This document shows positions 22,195-40,717 of a stretch of DNA of 40,717 nt, piece by piece. The notes beneath the pieces are model-generated. The model had not been told where the DNA came from and ran no database searches. It worked only from the letters and a program-made list of their open reading frames with translations. The translations under genes were made by a program, and so were the position numbers. The stretch comes from an uncultured Desulfovibrionaceae bacterium (GTDB lineage: Bacteria > Desulfobacterota > Desulfovibrionia > Desulfovibrionales > Desulfovibrionaceae). Each line of letters begins with the position of its first letter. Positions within the stretch are counted from its first letter, which is position 1. The stretch covers positions 1 through 40,717 of the forward strand of contig CASFUJ010000002.1 in the NCBI GenBank assembly GCA_949297645.1, given 5' to 3'.

Positions 22195-24108
22195 TTAGAG
22201 GACTTCCGGCCCCATGAGGGTGTAAGGCAACCAGAGGGCGATGTCCGGAATGAAGGTGATGAGTACGACCGCAAGAATCATCAGGCCGACGAAAGGCACG
22301 ATACCCTTGAAGATGGTCTCAATCGGAATACCCTTGGCCACACCGGCAAGAGCGAACACCACCACGCCGACGGGAGGCGTAATCTGGCCCATTTCCATAA
22401 TCATGACGGACACCACGCCGAACCACACGGGGTCGAAGCCGAGAGCGACAACGGTGGGGAAGATGGAAGGCAGGGTGAGCATGAGCATGGGGATGACGTT
22501 CATCATGCAGCCGAGGATAATATAGATGACCACGATGATGGCGAACACCCAGTAGCGGTTGAAGGGCAGGGAGACGATGAAGTCGGCCAGCAGGAAGGGA
22601 AGACGGGTGGCGGCGAAGAAGTAGCCGAGGATGGCCACGCCCACCATGATACCCATGATGCGGGCGGTGAGTTCACCGGTTTCATGCAGGGAGGCCAGCA
22701 GGTTCTGCTTGGTCACCTTGCGGCGGACAAGAGCATAGAGGAAGGCGCCCATGGCGCCGATACCGCCGCCTTCATTGGGGGAGCAGATACCGGCCACGAT
22801 GCTGCCGAGCACCAGCACGAACAGGGCAAGAATGGGAAGCAGGCCCATGGAGGACTGAATCTTCTCCGCCAGCGTGTACTTGGGGCCGCGGGGAGCGAGT
22901 TCAGGATGACGCACGGCCATGTAGTAGATATAGGCCATGAACATGAGGGCCAGCATGATGCCGGGAACCAGACCGGCCATGAACAGACGGCCTATGGAGA
23001 CTTCCGTCACGATACCGTAGATGATGAAGCCTGAGCTTGGCGGAATCAGAATACCCAGCGTACCGCCTGCGGCCAGAGCACCCGTGGCAAGGGAGGGGGA
23101 ATACTTGAGGCGCATCATTTCGGGCAGGGACACGGAGCCCATGGTCACGGCGGTGGAGAGCGAGTCACCGCACACGGCCGCAAAGCCGGTGCAGCCCGCA
23201 ACGCCGGCCATACCCATGCCGCCGGGCATGTGGCCTATCCACTTGTTGGCGGAGTTGAACAGGTCAACGGAAATACCGGAGTAAAGAATCATGCAGCCCA
23301 TGAGCACGAAGAGCGGCAGGGCCACAAGGTTGTAGTTGGCGGAAGCGGCGTACGGCGTGGTGCCCACGGCGGCCAGAGCGGCGACGACGTTACGGGACAC
23401 GGCCACCATGCCCATGGCGCCGATGATGCTCATGGCCCAGGCGATGGGCATACGGATGAACAGGAAAAGGAAAAGCAGACCGAACGCTATGAGACCGAGA
23501 ATGAGATTGGAAATCTCATAGGGGCTTTCACGATACCAGAAAGGCAGATACGCAAGAGCGAAGGCAAAGCCGACACCGAGAATAAAGGGAATATAATGTC
23601 CGGTCCCGAGGCACTTGACGCTTTCACGCAGGAACTGGAAGAACGCCACAAAGGCCGTGAGGCAGAGGCCCACAACCGGCATCCAGTAGTAGAATTCCAG
23701 CGGAACATACAGTTCCATGGACTGCGTGCCGAACTTGCTCAGGAACGCGTCGTAGCTTTCAAAGGTAAGCAGAACCATGACGCCGAGGACCAGAGAGGCC
23801 ACCGTCATGTCGCACCAGCGCCTCATACCTTTAGGCATGCGCTCATAGATGAAGTCAATCATCATATGGCGGTCGTGCAACTGCAGCAGTGCCATGAAGG
23901 AAAACGTAGTAAGCGCCAGAAGATTTTCCTGCAGCTCCAGAGAACCGGGTACGCTGAAACCGAACATGCGGCAGCAGACGTCCACGGTGATGAGCACCGG
24001 CAGAATGGCCATGGCCACATAGCTCAGCCAGCTCACCTTGGTAGTGAATTTTTCAAGAAAATTATGAATGCCCTGCAAAGCGGGAGAAAGGGAAACTTGT
24101 TCTGCCAT
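22195..24108 (-). CDS. TRAP transporter fused permease (DctQ-DctM type)
   Basis: 637 residues joining both membrane subunits of a tripartite ATP-independent periplasmic transporter. Residues 1-190 resemble the small DctQ subunit (four helices, LELQENLLALTTFSFMALL, RHMMIDFIYERMPKG). From about 200 onward it is the large DctM subunit, with GMGMAGVAGCTGFAAVCGDS, ALAAGGTLGILIPPSSGFI, GGGIGAMGAFLYALVRRK and GQITPPVGVVVF. TRAP systems import organic acids with Na+ or H+ using a periplasmic binding protein. ATG with AGG at short distance. It lies 123 bp after the first binding protein gene and before the sulfotransferase gene. The cargo cannot be told from sequence; the neighbours suggest a sulfated or sulfonated organic anion. 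Confidence 0.94.
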   Translation of the reverse strand: MAEQVSLSPALQGIHNFLEKFTTKVSWLSYVAMAILPVLITVDVCCRMFGFSVPGSLELQENLLALTTFSFMALLQLHDRHMMIDFIYERMPKGMRRWCDMTVASLVLGVMVLLTFESYDAFLSKFGTQSMELYVPLEFYYWMPVVGLCLTAFVAFFQFLRESVKCLGTGHYIPFILGVGFAFALAYLPFWYRESPYEISNLILGLIAFGLLFLFLFIRMPIAWAMSIIGAMGMVAVSRNVVAALAAVGTTPYAASANYNLVALPLFVLMGCMILYSGISVDLFNSANKWIGHMPGGMGMAGVAGCTGFAAVCGDSLSTAVTMGSVSLPEMMRLKYSPSLATGALAAGGTLGILIPPSSGFIIYGIVTEVSIGRLFMAGLVPGIMLALMFMAYIYYMAVRHPELAPRGPKYTLAEKIQSSMGLLPILALFVLVLGSIVAGICSPNEGGGIGAMGAFLYALVRRKVTKQNLLASLHETGELTARIMGIMVGVAILGYFFAATRLPFLLADFIVSLPFNRYWVFAIIVVIYIILGCMMNVIPMLMLTLPSIFPTVVALGFDPVWFGVVSVMIMEMGQITPPVGVVVFALAGVAKGIPIETIFKGIVPFVGLMILAVVLITFIPDIALWLPYTLMGPEVL

Positions 24109-24194
24109 GGGGACCTCGGCTTTTCACGATTCGCACCCGCGCGAACCGCGCAGAAATGGGTAAGCCAGAAAACACTGCCTTTTTAATGGACGAC

Positions 24195-24223
24195 GGGAGG
24201 GGGACAGCGCGACTCCCCCTCCC
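24195..24223. repeat. Strong hairpin between binding-protein and permease genes
   Basis: GGGAGGGGGA (24195-24204) and TCCCCCTCCC (24214-24223), a 10 bp perfect stem with a 9-base loop, just after the binding-protein stop. With no T tract next to it, it probably stabilises the upstream mRNA so that the binding protein is made in excess of the permease. Confidence 0.5.
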
Positions 24224-24231
24224 CGTACAAA

Positions 24232-25305
24232 TTACATCTTGTAATCGCCGTACTTACCGGCTCTCATTTCTTCAGTGTAGAACTTGGAGCGTTCCTGGGC
24301 GTACTTGTACACGGCGTCGATGACTTCAGGCTTCTCACCTTCGCAGGAATCTTTCCAGTCCTGAACGAAATGTCCGAGAGGAGCAAGGAAGGGAGCACGT
24401 TCTTCATCAGTCAGATAGAAGAAGGTATGGCCCTGAGCTTCCATCCATGCGGTGTCTTCCTTGGCGCCGTCTTCCAGAGACTTACCCACGCCGAGAGCCA
24501 TTTCCATGCCGCCGGTCTGCTTGAGGTAGGTCTTCATGTCGTCAGGCATGGAATCCCACAAATCCTTGTTGGCTTCCATGGTGAAGGCCTGAACCATGAT
24601 GTTAAGCATCAGATGGTACTTGGTGGCTTCCGTAATCTTATAGGACTTGAGAGGAGCAAGCGGGCAGATAACGCCGTCGCCCATACCCTTGGACAGAGCA
24701 AGATAGGTGTCGGGAGAGGTCATGCGGATGGGGTTGGCACCAAGAGCCTTGGTCAGTTCCAGAGCCACGGCGTCCCACACGATAATCTTCTTGCCCTTCA
24801 AGTCGTCCATGGTCTTGACGGGCTTGAGAGTATGCAGCTGATACGCAGCGGAAGCCCAGGACGTGAAGTGCTCGCTGTTGGCGGGAAGTTCGGCACGAAC
24901 TTCGGGGAACTTCTGAATGATGTCCTCAAGCACCAGAGAACCGACGATGGCGTTGGGACACATGCCGGGAATGGCAATCACGTTCAGCAGATTGTATTTG
25001 CCGGGATACACGGCGGGACGCAGCACACCGAAATCCACGCGACCGTCGGTAATGGCCTGGGGCGCTTCGGATTCAGGATACAGCGCGTTGGTGGCAAAAT
25101 AGTCAAAGGTCAGCTTGCCGCCGAACTTTTCATCCGTGGCCTTGAAATAAGGCTCCCAGTAGTTCACCACGGTGGGATGCTTCTCAAGATAGCTGCCCAT
25201 GAAGGACAGATGCTTGAATCCCTTGGCTGCCATGGCCGTCCCAGACATGGCCAGCATGCCGCCCACGGCAAGAGCCGCCGCCAGAACTCCGAATTTTTTC
25301 AACAT
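24232..25305 (-). CDS. TRAP transporter solute-binding protein (DctP family), copy 1
   Basis: A periplasmic binding protein delivering substrate to the fused permease. It has 357 residues with a clear signal peptide (MLKKFGVLAAALAVGG... cleaved after AMA). DctP landmarks: TNALYPESEAPQAITDGRVD, LKGKKIIVWD, ALGANPIRMTSPDTYLALSKG and DGVICPLAPLKSYKI. The start at 25305 has AAGGAG six bases upstream; the frame upstream to 25320 only adds a TTG. By eye about two thirds of residues match the next copy (25541-26617), including the signal peptide start and the YGDYK C-terminus, so the pair arose by tandem duplication. It has its own promoter and heads the permease-sulfotransferase unit. Confidence 0.94.
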   Translation of the reverse strand: MLKKFGVLAAALAVGGMLAMSGTAMAAKGFKHLSFMGSYLEKHPTVVNYWEPYFKATDEKFGGKLTFDYFATNALYPESEAPQAITDGRVDFGVLRPAVYPGKYNLLNVIAIPGMCPNAIVGSLVLEDIIQKFPEVRAELPANSEHFTSWASAAYQLHTLKPVKTMDDLKGKKIIVWDAVALELTKALGANPIRMTSPDTYLALSKGMGDGVICPLAPLKSYKITEATKYHLMLNIMVQAFTMEANKDLWDSMPDDMKTYLKQTGGMEMALGVGKSLEDGAKEDTAWMEAQGHTFFYLTDEERAPFLAPLGHFVQDWKDSCEGEKPEVIDAVYKYAQERSKFYTEEMRAGKYGDYKM

Positions 25306-25391
25306 ATCCAGCTCCTTCAATGTGAAAAATAGTCTTTGGGTTCACCGGAAACCATTTGCTTGATGGCTTCTTAGCCTCATTCAATAGAGTC

Positions 25392-25421
25392 TTAGTAAAA
25401 TAAATATCAAGATTCTGTCAA
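25392..25421 (-). promoter_or_regulatory. Promoter of binding-protein copy 1 / permease / sulfotransferase unit
   Basis: Minus strand TTGACA (25421-25416), 18 bp, TACTAA (25397-25392) in a markedly AT-rich region (about 25380-25490). This leaves a leader of about 80 bases. Confidence 0.55.
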
Positions 25422-25490
25422 TAGAAAAAAACTTTTTATTAATTTAACTAGTTGAATTTTATGAACTAAAAATATATTTCCTCTGTGATA

Positions 25491-25526
25491 TGAAAAAGGC
25501 CCGACCGGAGAAACAGGTCGAGCCTT
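25491..25526 (-). terminator. Terminator of binding-protein copy 2
   Basis: Minus strand AAGGCTCGACC, 9-base loop, GGTCGGGCCTT, then TTT; one G-T pair in an 11 bp stem. It separates copy 2 from the copy 1 promoter, so the two are independent transcription units. Confidence 0.8.
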
Positions 25527-25540
25527 CAGGTATCATATTA

Positions 25541-26617
25541 CTATATCTTATAGTCGCCGTAAACGCCTGCGCGAACCTGTTCCGTATGGAACTTGCTGCG
25601 TTCTCTGGCAAAATTCAGTACTTCTTCCACCAGCTTGGGATCCATATCCCCGCAGTCTTCCTGCTGCCAGACCTGCGTGAAGGACGCGAGCGGGGCCAGA
25701 ATGGCCGCCCTGTCTTCATCATTGAGATAGTAGAAGGTATGGCCCTGAGCTTCCATCCATGCGGTATCGTCCTTGGCCCCGTCTTCCAGAGACTTGCCGC
25801 AGGCTTCGGCCATCTTGAGACCGCCTTCCTGCACGAGCCATGCGCGCATGTCGTCGGGCAGGGAGTCCCACAGGTCCTTGTTGGTTTCCAGCGAGAAGGT
25901 GTTGACGCCGAGGTTCAGGATGAGATGGTGCTTCGTGGATTCGGTAATCTTGTAGGAGCGCAGGGGCGCCAGCGGGCAGAGCACGCCGTCGGCCATCCCC
26001 TTGGACAGCGCGAGATAGGTATCGGGAGAGCTCATGCGTATGGGATTGGCGCCGAGAGCCTTCACGAATTCCAGCGTCGTGGCATCCCACACGATGATCT
26101 TCTTGCCCTTCAGTTCCGCCGCGTTGCGTATGGGCTTTATGGAATGAATCTGATACGCGGCGGACGCCCAGGAGGTAAAGTGCACGGTGTTCGGCGGAAA
26201 TTCGTCACGAACCTCCTTGAATTTCTGAATTATTTCCTCAGCCACAAGGCTGCCCACAATGGCGTTGGGACACATGCCGGGAAGAGCGACGACGCCCAGC
26301 AGATTCATTTTGCCCGGGAAGAGCGCAGGACGGACTTCGCCGATATCCACGCGGCCGTCCGTCACGGCATTGAAGGACTCGGATTCGGGGTACAGGGAGT
26401 TGGTGGAGAAGTAGTCAAAGGACATCCTGCCGTTGAACTTTTTCTCGGTGGCCTCGATGAACGGCTTGAACACGTTCACCGTGGTGGGGTGTTTCTCCAT
26501 GTACCCGCCCATGAAGGACAGGTGCTTGAACCCTTTGGCGGCCTGAGCCTCCCCGGAAAGAACCGGCATACCGCCCAGAACGAGAATCAGCGCCAGCACT
26601 CCAAACTTTTTCAGCAT
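25541..26617 (-). CDS. TRAP transporter solute-binding protein (DctP family), copy 2
   Basis: A paralogue of the downstream neighbour, 358 residues, signal peptide MLKKFGVLALILVLGG... ending SGEAQA before AKGFKHLSFMGG. The same family blocks are kept (NPIRMSSPDTYLALSKG, DGVLCPLAPLRSYKI, SLEDGAKDDTAWMEAQGHTF). Differences from copy 1 cluster in the first lobe (VNVFKPFIEATEKKF against VNYWEPYFKATDEKF) and around GEVRPALFPGK against GVLRPAVYPGK, where ligand specificity could differ. ATG at 26617 has AGGAG eight bases upstream. It has its own promoter and terminator and no second permease is visible, so both copies may serve the same DctQM protein. Confidence 0.94.
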   Translation of the reverse strand: MLKKFGVLALILVLGGMPVLSGEAQAAKGFKHLSFMGGYMEKHPTTVNVFKPFIEATEKKFNGRMSFDYFSTNSLYPESESFNAVTDGRVDIGEVRPALFPGKMNLLGVVALPGMCPNAIVGSLVAEEIIQKFKEVRDEFPPNTVHFTSWASAAYQIHSIKPIRNAAELKGKKIIVWDATTLEFVKALGANPIRMSSPDTYLALSKGMADGVLCPLAPLRSYKITESTKHHLILNLGVNTFSLETNKDLWDSLPDDMRAWLVQEGGLKMAEACGKSLEDGAKDDTAWMEAQGHTFYYLNDEDRAAILAPLASFTQVWQQEDCGDMDPKLVEEVLNFARERSKFHTEQVRAGVYGDYKI

Positions 26618-26696
26618 ACACAACACTCCTTTTTGTGAATTTATTATCCTGTTCTTCTACAAAAAAAGCGCCTCAGACCCTTCTTTCGTTTATGCC

Positions 26697-26726
26697 TTTA
26701 TAGTAAGGAAAAATCCTGTTCGTCAA
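26697..26726 (-). promoter_or_regulatory. Promoter of binding-protein copy 2
   Basis: Minus strand TTGACG (26726-26721), 18 bp, TATAAA (26702-26697); the best sigma-70-like site in the window, about 70 bases ahead of the start codon. Confidence 0.65.
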
Positions 26727-27470
26727 TAGGTCGTCCGATTGCAATTCCGCGCGTACCATGCTTTTTCGAAGAAAAGGCCGCGCGCTGTGCGCTCCCCGGC
26801 GTCGCCCTTTTCCTTACCGTCCCTGCAGCACGGGGAAAAATTCATTTGTTATTTTATTCTCAAAACAATTTACAACATTCCGTTTTTCAAACATCATGTT
26901 CTTGAAAGCCGCTTCTCCGAGGAACGATCCTCTTTCGGAGAAGACATGCCCGGCCGGAGCCTTTGCCTCTCTCCCTCCGAAAAAAGCCGATGCCCTTTTC
27001 TGCCGCACATGCCGGCAATCGTCTCCGCCCGCAAAAAACGCACTCCAGCCACACAGATACAGGCGCGCCGTCCGCCTGAAACGCCTCCGCGTCCCGCTGC
27101 CTGAACCGGTTGTCCATGAAAAAAAAGCAACGTACATCCGCTTTTCGTCTCCTCTTCCTGAAGAAAACGCCGCCCCTTCACAGCAAGACTCTCAGAAGTC
27201 ACCGATATGCTCCATCACGGCGGTGTGAGGGAAGGGTATTTCCCCCTCTCCCGTGAAGAAAAACGCCTGCCTGCATACGGACGAAAGCAGATGTGCCCAC
27301 GCAAAGAGCATCAGCTGGGCAAAACGCCCGCCTGCGCACGGAGCGTCGTCTGTGCGACCGGATGGAAACGCTCCGACGAAAACGGCCGCCTGCGTACGGG
27401 CGAACCTGAACTCAGCATTGAGATGAGGTGCGTTTTCGGGAAACGCCTGCCCGCATACGGCGAAAGGCAC
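26727..27470. other. 745 bp non-coding region with short spaced repeats
   Basis: No open frame here carries a recognisable motif. An AT-rich patch near 26845-26900 may hold promoters. Between 27261 and 27460 four related 20 bp units recur, starting at 27261, 27322, 27380 and 27441. The consensus is approximately AAACGCCYGCCTGCRTACGG, and the spacing is 58-61 bp. The spacing is not a multiple of three throughout, so they are not a repeated peptide. Confidence 0.5.
27261..27460. repeat. Four degenerate ~20 bp direct repeats at ~60 bp intervals
   Basis: Units at 27261-27280, 27322-27341, 27380-27399 and 27441-27460 share AAACG, CCGCC/CTGCC and a terminal TACGG or CACGG. The core GCCTGCGTACGGGC is nearly palindromic. 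Too degenerate for a CRISPR array. Confidence 0.5.
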
Positions 27471-36384: not shown

Positions 36385-36511
36385 TCCGAAGGCTGCGGCA
36401 GTTCTGTCCGCGGCCTTCTTCCGTTCCCGGCAGACGCCCGTGCATCTTGCGAAGATGCGTCAAATGACCGATGATGGAAAAGCGCCCCTTCCTTTCAACC
36501 CCGTTTTCCGC

Positions 36512-39500
36512 ATGAGCGAATTTCGACAGATAAAAGCCTCGGCCGGCTCCGGCAAGACCTATACGCTGACAAGCCGCTTCCTCGACCTTCTGGCCGGTTC
36601 TTCCGGCGCATCGTGGAGCCGCCCGCCCTCAGGCTGCGCCCTCTTTGCGGAAGACGCCTACGGCTGGCAGGAAATACTGGCCATCACCTTCACCAACAAG
36701 GCGGCCACGGAAATGCGCGAGCGACTGCTCACGCGACTGAAGACGCTGGCCCTCGCCTCTGCCGCGAGCGCTGCAAAGGAACCGTTCTGGAAACCGGCAA
36801 AGGCGCGCGAAGCCGTGGACATGCTCATCCGGAGCTACGGCTCGCTGAACATCCGCACCATCGACAGCCTGCTGCACCTCATGGTGCGTCTTTCCGCCCT
36901 CGATTTCGACCTGTCGCCCGACTTTGAACCCCGCTTTGCCGACAGCGACATCACCGGCCCCATCTTTGACGAGATGGCCGAAAAGGCCCGCGAAGACGAA
37001 GAGCTGGGCCTTCTTTTCCGCCGCGCATGCCGTCAGATGCTGCACTCGGAACGGTCGCGCGGCTTTCTGGCAGGAGAGCGCATACGCGAGCGCGTGATGA
37101 CCATGGTCTCCCTCATGCTCGGCGCGGACGGCTGGAGCGCGCGCGACCTCGCCTCACCGGAACAGGCGGAAGAGCATTTTCAGGCCGTGATGCGCGACAT
37201 CCGAAACGACGCCCGTGAAATACGCGCCCGCCTGGAACAGGAAGAGCTGAAAGCTGCCAAAAACTTTCTCAATGCCCTCACCTCCTGCATAGAGTGCGGA
37301 GGAAGGGCGGATAAGCTGAAGCGCGACTCGGCCATGCTTCGCAAGGAAAGCTTCGACGAGTGCCTGCTCAAGGTCTCCAAAGGCAACGCCAGCCTCTCCC
37401 TGCACGCCCTCTACGACAGTCTGAAGGACGGCATACGGGAAATCGGCGTGCTTCTCGGAGCGCGCAAACTCATGCCGTTTGCCGAGCTGGCGCAGGCCGT
37501 GTATGCGGGGGTGGAGGAGTTCGAGCGCAAAAGCGGCATCATCGCCGCCTCGCAGGTGCCCGGCCTCGCCATACGCGCCGCGGACGACAGCGAGGGGGTC
37601 AACGAGCTGTTCTGCCGCCTCGGCGCGCGCATCACGCACATGCTCATCGACGAATTTCAGGACACGAGCCGCGACCAGTGGTTCGCGCTTCAGCCTCTGG
37701 CTGAGGAGGCGCTTTCAAAAAACGGCTCCCTCACCATCGTGGGAGACGTGAAGCAGGCCATTTACGGCTGGCGCGGGGGAGACGCCTCCCTGTTCGACGA
37801 CCTCGTCCGTCAGGGCTCGCCGCTTCTTTCGCTGGTGAAGAGTCCCACGCTGGAAACGCTGCCCTTCAACTGGCGCAGCAGACGGCACATCGTTGCCTGG
37901 AACAACGCCCTGTTCTCTCCTCTCGGCGACAAAGACACGGCCGCCTATCTGCTTTCCCCTCTGGCAGGAAACGATGAGGAACTTCTGGAAAAACAGACGG
38001 AGCGCCTCTGCGAAGCCTTTTCCCGCGCGTCTCAAAGCGCGGAAAAATGCGCTCCCGGGGGCCTCGTGCATCTCATCCGACTGGAAAAGGGACGCACGGA
38101 CGAACAGCTTTCCACCGGCCTGCCCGATCTTGTGGAAGAGCTGGGACGCTCCCGTTCCTGGGGAGACATCTGCATTCTTACGCGCAACAACGACCAGTCC
38201 GCCAAAGCCTCGGCCTGGCTCATGGCCCGACACATACCCGTGGTCACGCAGGCCAGTCTGCTGCTCTCCGAACAGCCCGTCATCGCCGGACTCGTCAGTC
38301 TGCTGCGTTTTCTGAACGAACCTGACGACGACATCGCCTTCTGGTCCACCCTGCTCTCCGAAGCGCTTCTGCCGCCCCTGCCCGCAGGACGCCGCGAACT
38401 TCACGACTGGGCCTCCCGCCGCTCCCGCAGAAGAAGCATGGCCCGGCAGTTCGCCCTGGATTTTCCCGATATCTGGCAGAGCGTCTTCGCGCCTCTGCAC
38501 GACAACGCGGGCCTGCTCACTCCCTACGACGCCGTCATGGAGGTGCTGAAACGCTGGAAGGTCATGGAGCGCCGCCCCGACGCGGAAGGCTTTGTGCGGC
38601 GTTTTCTGGAAGTGCTCTTCTGCGCCGAGGAACAGGGCGTTTCCGACCTCTCCGGTTTTCTCGATTTCTGGGACAAAAGCGGCAGTCAGGAAAAGGCCCC
38701 TCTGCCCGAAAGCATGGACGCCGTGAGCATCATGACCATACACAAGGCCAAGGGACTGGAATTCGAGGCCGTCATCCTGCCCTGGCTGAACTTCGTTCCC
38801 GGCCGGGTCACGGACGACAAGGCCGTGTTCTGGAACAGCCGCGGTACGGGACTTCTCGCGCCTCTGTGCAGGGACATGGGCAGGCCGTGGCTTGAAGACC
38901 GCATGGATACGGCCCGCGAAGACCTGCATCTCATCTATGTGGCCATGACGCGCGCCGTTTCCGAACTGCACTGCTTTCTGCCCGACCCTGCCGAAGGGGA
39001 TTTCGCCCTCATGCTCGAAAAGCTCATCTCTCCTCTGGAGGACAGCCTGCGGGAACAGGGCGAGGAACGGTTCTGGGGCGAAGAGAGCGCGCCAAAGACG
39101 CCCCGGCCCGCGCCCGCAGAAAGCGCCCCGGCAAAGACGCCCTCCGCCCCCGCTCCCCGGCCTGCGGCAAAGACGCCGGACACGGACGCGGAAGAAGAGG
39201 CCTGGCGGCCCATGGACTGGCTGCCGCGCCTGCGCATCTTCCGCAGTCCGCTGGAAGACTGGACGTTCACGCCCAAAAGACGCGGCACACTCATTCATCA
39301 CTGCCTCGAGAGCCTGCACATCTCCGGCGTGGGGGAAGCCTCGGCAAGGCGCGACGCCGCCCTTGCCGCCGCGCGCGGCCTCGCCACCTTCCCGCTGCCC
39401 GTGCCGGACAGGGAACGTACGCAGAAGGATGTGGAAGACATCCTCTGCTGGTACGCCCTTCAGCCGGAAACCCCGCACTGGCTGGCCTTCGGCACGCCGG

Positions 39501-39672
39501 AACACGCGCTGCTCGACGAAGAAGGACGGCAGTACCGCGTGGACCTGCTGGTGGACGACGGCCGCGAGCTTGTCGCCGTGGAATACAAAACCGGCGCACA
39601 GGGAGCACTGCCGCGGCCGGAACATACGGAACAGCTCTCCCGCTATCTTCATCTGCTCCGTCAGGCCGGAGC
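36512..39672 (+). CDS. AddA/RecB-like UvrD-family helicase with PD-(D/E)XK nuclease, 3' end lost at contig junction
   Basis: About 1,050 residues of a double-strand-break repair helicase-nuclease. Helicase motifs in order: IKASAGSGKTYTLTSRF (Walker A), ILAITFTNKAATEMRERL, HMLIDEFQDTSRDQW, IVGDVKQAIYGWRGGD, NWRSRRHIV, SIMTIHKAKGLEFEAV and LIYVAMTRAVSELH. An Ala/Pro-rich linker precedes the nuclease domain: GTLIHHCLESL, YRVDLLVDDG and VAVEYKTG give the metal-binding His, Asp, Glu and the Lys. After EQLSRYLHLLRQAG the reading frame stays open but the translation becomes the antisense of a porin gene, so the true C-terminus is missing. ATG at 36512 gives MSEFRQIKASAGSGKT as in relatives; ATG at 36464 is the alternative. 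No addB-like partner is visible. Confidence 0.9.
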
Positions 39673-39675
39673 CGT
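39650..39675. other. Junction between two unrelated genomes
   Basis: Up to 39,650-39,670 the plus strand encodes the helicase-nuclease; from 39,653 onward the minus strand encodes a porin. Both readings share at most about 20 bases (39,653-39,672) and both genes are cut there. Confidence 0.85.
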
Positions 39676-40144
39676 TGAACACGCCCGCCTCCAGTTTCAG
39701 CGGGAAGCCCACGTTGAACGTGTAGCCAAGCGTGGCGCCCACGTCGCGCACGTTGCCCACCTGCTTGGCTATGAACGAGCGGTTGGCGAAGTACTGCTGG
39801 TGGGGCGAGCGGTGCGCGTCGATGGTGAACGGTACGCGCATCTGGCCTATCGTGAAGTCGAGCGTGCTCCACGGGCTTATGCGCGTATAGGCATCGAGCA
39901 TCTTTATGTTGCCCTCGTCGGAGAGGTCTATCTCCGCCTTGTACGCCACGGCCTCCACCACCTTGCCCGTGATGCTGAACCGCGCGTTGCGCACCTGGAA
40001 GCGGCCTTGGCCCTCCTCCGTCTGGTACTCGTACTTGCCGCGAATCGTTCCGTGAATCTCCGGCTTAAACTGTGCGGCTGCGTCAAGGCACACCGCCAAG
40101 CCCGCAAGGGCCAATGCTCTCTTCATCCTTCGGTACGTTTTCAT
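39653..40144 (-). CDS. Bacteroidales phosphate-selective-porin-family (OprO/P) outer-membrane protein, 3' truncated
   Basis: Signal peptide MKRALALAGLAVCLDAAA before QFKPEIHGTIRGKYEY, then strand motifs GRFQVRNARFSITG, VAYKAEIDLSDEG, IKMLDAYTRISPW, FTIGQMRVPFTIDAHRSP, FANRSFIAKQVGN, VRDVGATLGYTF and LKLEAGVFNGSGLTEQ. This is the style of the porin O/P family abundant in Bacteroidetes. About 164 residues are present of an expected 350-450; after GSGLTEQ the frame runs into the antisense of the helicase gene. Start choice among 40150, 40144 and 40126 is open; Bacteroidetes do not rely on Shine-Dalgarno sites. It cannot be a functional gene in this contig as assembled. Confidence 0.85.
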
Positions 40145-40278
40145 TTCCATTCTTTCCGCCCGAACGGCGCGGCCGCATCCCGCCATCGGGGATGCAGCCG
40201 CGCCATCGTGTGGCATTTCTGCCTGCAAATATCGGCAAAACGTGTTACAAAAGCGTTACGCCGAGTTTAAATAAAAGT

Positions 40279-40299
40279 AAAAAACGCTCCGAAGCCGAC
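40279..40299 (-). terminator. Possible weak terminator upstream of the porin fragment
   Basis: On the minus strand GGCT-TCGG-AGCG followed by TTTTTT, just after the stop of the preceding partial gene; short stem, so tentative. Confidence 0.35.
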
Positions 40300-40301
40300 A
40301 C

Positions 40302-40717
40302 TTAACCGCCTGTCCATTCCCTCACCACATAGCCGCCATCAGCGCGGCGGTAGAAGCCAAACGGCGTCACTCGCCCGGCGTTGGTGCGCAGGCCGAAGCC
40401 AAGCGTGCGCCACCCGCCGATGTGCGGCAGCCGTTGCTCCGTGGCCAGACCGCTCTGGCGGTCGATGGCCACGAAGGTGTAGCCCTTGTTCTGCGGCGAA
40501 GGGTCGTAGACTCCGCCAGGCGCATACTCCACTATGCAATACACCGCCGCGCTGTCCATTCGCGCCGCAACAATGCGGCGATAGAAAAAGCGCCGGTAAG
40601 CAATGGCATATTCGTCTTTATAGAAGAGCGCGGTGTCGGGGCGAGGAAATGCCGCCGTGTCCACCGCAAAGGCCGAATACTGCCGCATCTTGCCCCGCCG
40701 CAGGTCGTCTGTAAGGT
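40302..40717 (-). CDS. Unrecognised protein, 5' end beyond window (Bacteroidales segment)
   Basis: The frame is open to the window edge (…LTDDLRRGK before an internal Met at 40688), so the N-terminus is missing; about 137 residues are visible. Features: DTALFYKDEYAIAYRRFFYRR, YCIVEYAPGGVYDPSPQNKGY (quoted by its parts CIVEYAPGG and NKGYTFVAIDRQSG), GGWRTLGFGLRTN and a C-terminal YRRADGGYVVREWTGG. It is rich in aromatic and charged residues and predicted soluble as far as seen. I do not recognise a family. It precedes the porin fragment on the same strand with 157 bp between, so it belongs to the same foreign segment. Confidence 0.6.
   Translation of the reverse strand, partial: LTDDLRRGKMRQYSAFAVDTAAFPRPDTALFYKDEYAIAYRRFFYRRIVAARMDSAAVYCIVEYAPGGVYDPSPQNKGYTFVAIDRQSGLATEQRLPHIGGWRTLGFGLRTNAGRVTPFGFYRRADGGYVVREWTGG

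Follow-up and report, generated by a model that had tools for sequence, protein, structure and literature searches.

The contig examined here is almost certainly an interspecies assembly chimera (a probability of about 96%), in which a piece of Prevotella DNA has been joined to the DNA of a sulfate-reducing host whose chromosome would actually continue, across approximately 52 unassembled bases, into another contig of the same assembly. The window, meaning the whole stretch of DNA that was analyzed, is the entire 40,717-base contig (C2), which belongs to a genome of 372 contigs and 2.49 Mb with an estimated completeness of 88.6%. Full-length dsrA is present in the bin, in keeping with a sulfate-reducing member of the Desulfovibrionaceae. 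A first-pass annotation made from the letters alone had proposed that Bacteroidales DNA is attached to a Desulfovibrionaceae contig, and this proposal is borne out both by a switch of homology within C2 and by the finding of the true continuation on a second contig (C19). Sequence comparison establishes both sources, the position of the break, the 20-mer that they share and the true continuation, and the coordinates of the features involved are collected in Table 1.

Two sources meeting at a short shared sequence

The gene products on the two sides were named correctly at the outset. On the left, Pfam recognizes UvrD-helicase (2.4e-34), UvrD_C and the nuclease domain PDDEXK_1, and on the right it recognizes Porin_O_P. 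Among the NCBIfam models, the nearest to the left gene are those for RecB-like helicases and AddA, all of them under their cut-offs, with the RecB-like helicase model reaching 1.8e-62. The helicase gene is conserved across the host genus, and its DNA is 69-85% identical in same-genus genomes, the closest of which is G010 (85%).

The right side was suspected to derive from Bacteroidales, and comparison with such sequences places it more precisely. A single alignment, with 96.5% DNA identity and 37 scattered differences, spans 39,652-40,717, up to the last base of the contig, and pairs it with a locus (L017) on the Prevotella contig CALUMB010000042.1, which is part of MAG BRZ_QA__bin92. At the protein level the porin is 100% identical to L017 over 164 aa, and the next matches come from other Prevotella and related Bacteroidales, so that on sequence grounds the foreign source is narrowed from Bacteroidales to Prevotella. 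L017 carries the porin gene and the neighbor gene in identical order, the latter encoding a 597-aa protein of unknown function. The intact porin open reading frame in L017 is 349 aa long, and the copy on C2 is cut after approximately 165 aa.

Table 1. Features at the right end of C2 (positions in the window)
Feature	Position	Strand	Basis or remark
RecB/AddA-like UvrD helicase with PD-(D/E)XK nuclease domain	36440..39671	+	host-native; Pfam, NCBIfam, same-genus DNA
Open frame of 1,276 codons over the junction, artefactual, not a gene	36440..40270	+	ORF list; relatives unmatched past the junction
Open frame of 837 aa through the junction (porin frame)	37715..40228	-	ORF list
20-nt identity common to both genomes, the mis-join point (TCTGCTCCGTCAGGCCGGAG)	39652..39671	.	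end of left homology, start of right homology
Porin_O_P-type outer-membrane porin of Prevotella, 5' part only, 3' half gone	39652..40129	-	Porin_O_P 5.2e-11 (Pfam); L017
Foreign Prevotella segment of 1,046 bases, to be trimmed off the contig	39672..40717	.	homology, composition, absence in relatives
3' end of the neighboring Prevotella gene, which leaves the contig end	40302..40715	-	arranged as in L017, with 96.5% identical DNA

The two homologies change over abruptly at 39,652-39,671, with the best relatives of the two sides lying in different phyla. In same-genus genomes, the left part has homology as far as 39,671 (G010 and G014) or 39,672 (G015), and the long matches of 36440-40717 in 59 relatives never go beyond 39,672. 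In a base-by-base comparison with L017, homology to Prevotella starts at exactly 39,652, the last mismatch being at 39,651. The short exact sequence at the join that is common to both sources is therefore 20 bases long, or 21 if base 39,672 is shared too, and at most 21-22. Both the helicase and the porin lose their 3' ends at this point, as had been noticed from the letters alone, for which only the coordinates need to be moved, from 39,653-39,672 to 39,652-39,671. The Prevotella part is absent from all 59 of the relatives searched. The exact junction also gave no match in viral contigs, a search that says little.

The annotation had also warned of an artificial frame of 1,276 codons, and this concern was justified, because the frame runs through the junction and no relative matches any of it beyond that point. 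As judged from these comparisons it is an artefact and not a gene. Open frames that pass through the join on both strands are to be expected in high-GC DNA.

A left/right comparison of tetranucleotide composition, one of the checks initially suggested, points in the same direction. The right part has a 4-mer score of -0.022, compared with a mean of 0.028 for windows of the left part and a mean of -0.060 for Prevotella, and it falls below approximately 99% of the left windows, with approximately 1% of them being as low. Composition thus leans toward Prevotella, and it has a supporting role only, given the shortness of a 1-kb segment and the high GC content of both genomes.

Elsewhere in C2 the GC content is approximately 0.60, and it dips to 0.52-0.54 at 24-27 kb. 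There, within window positions 23000-27000, the score that distinguishes host from Prevotella 4-mers is near zero, and this region possibly contains acquired or differently used genes. The opposite end of the contig was considered as the site of another chimera. This candidate was ruled out, as matches to the host genus extend through the initial 4 kb, starting at approximately base 37, which makes that end native.

Continuation of the helicase gene on a second contig

The strongest evidence comes from the part of the helicase gene that C2 lacks. The last 25-30 codons or so are absent from C2, as judged by comparison with L003, which ends with ...RQAGETNVRGALVYLDRREIFPLFPGDSHE*. When the region downstream of the G010 helicase was searched for in the assembly that contains C2, a match was found at the very end of C19. 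The minus strand of C19 opens with LSAGDDHE*, which corresponds to the last eight codons of the helicase and its stop, and this stop overlaps the start of a gene for a 997-aa AddB-like nuclease, as it does in G010. No Prevotella sequence is present at the joining end of C19, which is native to its last bases.

The distance between window position 39,671 and the first base of C19 can be read from relatives that have both halves on one contig. It is exactly 52 bases in six of these (G006, G010, G013, G014, G016 and G018, the last being a single-contig genome) and 53 bases in G007 and G009. In G001 and G003, which are more distant, the same calculation from the alignment ends yields 112 and 121, as would be expected from an accumulation of length differences. 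The 52-base spacing in relatives makes C2 and C19 neighbors, and the Prevotella piece is out of place between them. Judged by this synteny, position 39671 of C2 and position 18873 of C19 (G000:C19:18873) adjoin in the chromosome, separated by an unassembled gap of approximately 52 bases, and these bases were not found assembled.

These observations agree with the original suggestion of a mis-join through a short shared sequence, for which one of the arguments given was that an insertion breaks one gene and not two. That argument carries little weight, since transferred fragments can themselves be truncated. The case for a mis-join is made by the C19 evidence rather than by the two broken genes.

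The AddB-like nuclease gene (L099, minus strand, G000:C19:15000-18873) overlaps the helicase stop codon through the sequence ATGA. Members of the genus conserve the helicase/AddB-like pair, which looks like a translationally coupled repair operon of the AddAB/RecB-like type.

Alternative readings: foreign DNA in the chromosome or in the bin

Some of the same evidence might also be produced by recent horizontal transfer, in which 1 kb or more of Prevotella DNA entered the RecB-like helicase gene by microhomology with the loss of approximately 52 bases, leaving C19 as the other flank. Joining mediated by microhomology would be compatible with the shared 20-mer, and a small deletion would account for the distance to C19 on the far side. 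However, an insertion of this kind should have host DNA on both sides, whereas the foreign part reaches the end of C2 and the C19 end is native, and neither a second Prevotella junction nor a further fragment is present in the bin. Furthermore, the fragment consists of two ordinary truncated Prevotella genes, occurs in 0 of 59 relatives, and would have inactivated a conserved DNA-repair nuclease. We consider transfer of this type to be highly improbable, as all of the tests applied point away from it, and there is an equally slim chance that a real, very recent insertion of Prevotella chromosomal DNA by microhomology exists in part of the population of this gut sulfate reducer, as in a minor strain.

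Two other sources of foreign DNA were evaluated and rejected. A mobile element was ruled out, as searches of plasmid and phage records gave no match to the segment, which carries the porin and neighbor genes and no mobile-element genes. General contamination of the bin with Bacteroidales DNA was also ruled out. The bin lacks a second Porin_O_P match, a SusD match and any additional close match to the Prevotella region of L017, and the foreign DNA is thus explained by a single mis-joined end rather than by general contamination.

How the mis-join might have formed

The 20-21 base sequence is present by chance in two places, the host helicase gene and, with its orientation reversed, the Prevotella porin gene. 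If the true path were missing at low depth, then the shared 20-21-mer would yield a false unbranched path, and the assembler (or a chimeric read) probably followed the shared sequence and from there ran on through 1,046 bases of Prevotella DNA. Chance identities of this length are not rare. In a comparison with only 0.78 Mb of Bacteroidales DNA, made up of 80 porin loci that are mostly from Prevotella, C2 had 157 15-mer, 10 18-mer and 4 19-mer positions in common with this set. Given 4 chance 19-mers in 0.78 Mb, many identities of approximately 20 bases are expected to be held in common with a whole gut metagenome.

The join was probably made in software, through a shared k-mer together with a local gap in coverage, rather than by PCR or ligation. 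A chimera formed during library preparation, by PCR template switching or by ligation, would fall under the artefact reading as a special case. One chimeric read could be enough to span a point of low coverage. Template switching too relies on short identities. However, an overlap of 20-21 bases is the size of the smallest k-mers of common assemblers, and so we regard an origin in the library as unlikely. The consequence for the sequence is identical in either case.

Implications and comparison with known systems

This mis-join matters for data hygiene only, as it is an ordinary assembly error and not biology. Bases 39,672-40,717 of C2 should leave the bin, and C2 can be placed next to C19 with a gap of approximately 52 bases. 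Databases should not take up the 1,276-codon fusion frame, nor should they record gene transfer between Bacteroidota and a sulfate reducer (the recipient) on the strength of C2.

When C2 is set beside known systems, three comparisons apply. The Prevotella porin region of CALUMB010000042.1 resembles C2 in its two genes, their order, and its DNA and porin-part protein identities (96.5% and 100%), and differs in that its porin runs on to the full 349-aa frame. The pair of RecB-like helicase and AddB-like nuclease genes in the host genus (for example, in G018 and G010) is the same pair that is formed by the left part of C2 and C19, except that foreign DNA replaces the helicase end in C2. Overall, C2 resembles the interspecies chimeric contigs that arise as translocation-type misassemblies of short-read metagenomes, in which unrelated genomes are joined through a short exact identity, both genes are truncated at the join, and the true continuation is on another contig. 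Nothing notable sets C2 apart from typical contigs of this kind, except for the long open frame that is kept on both strands.
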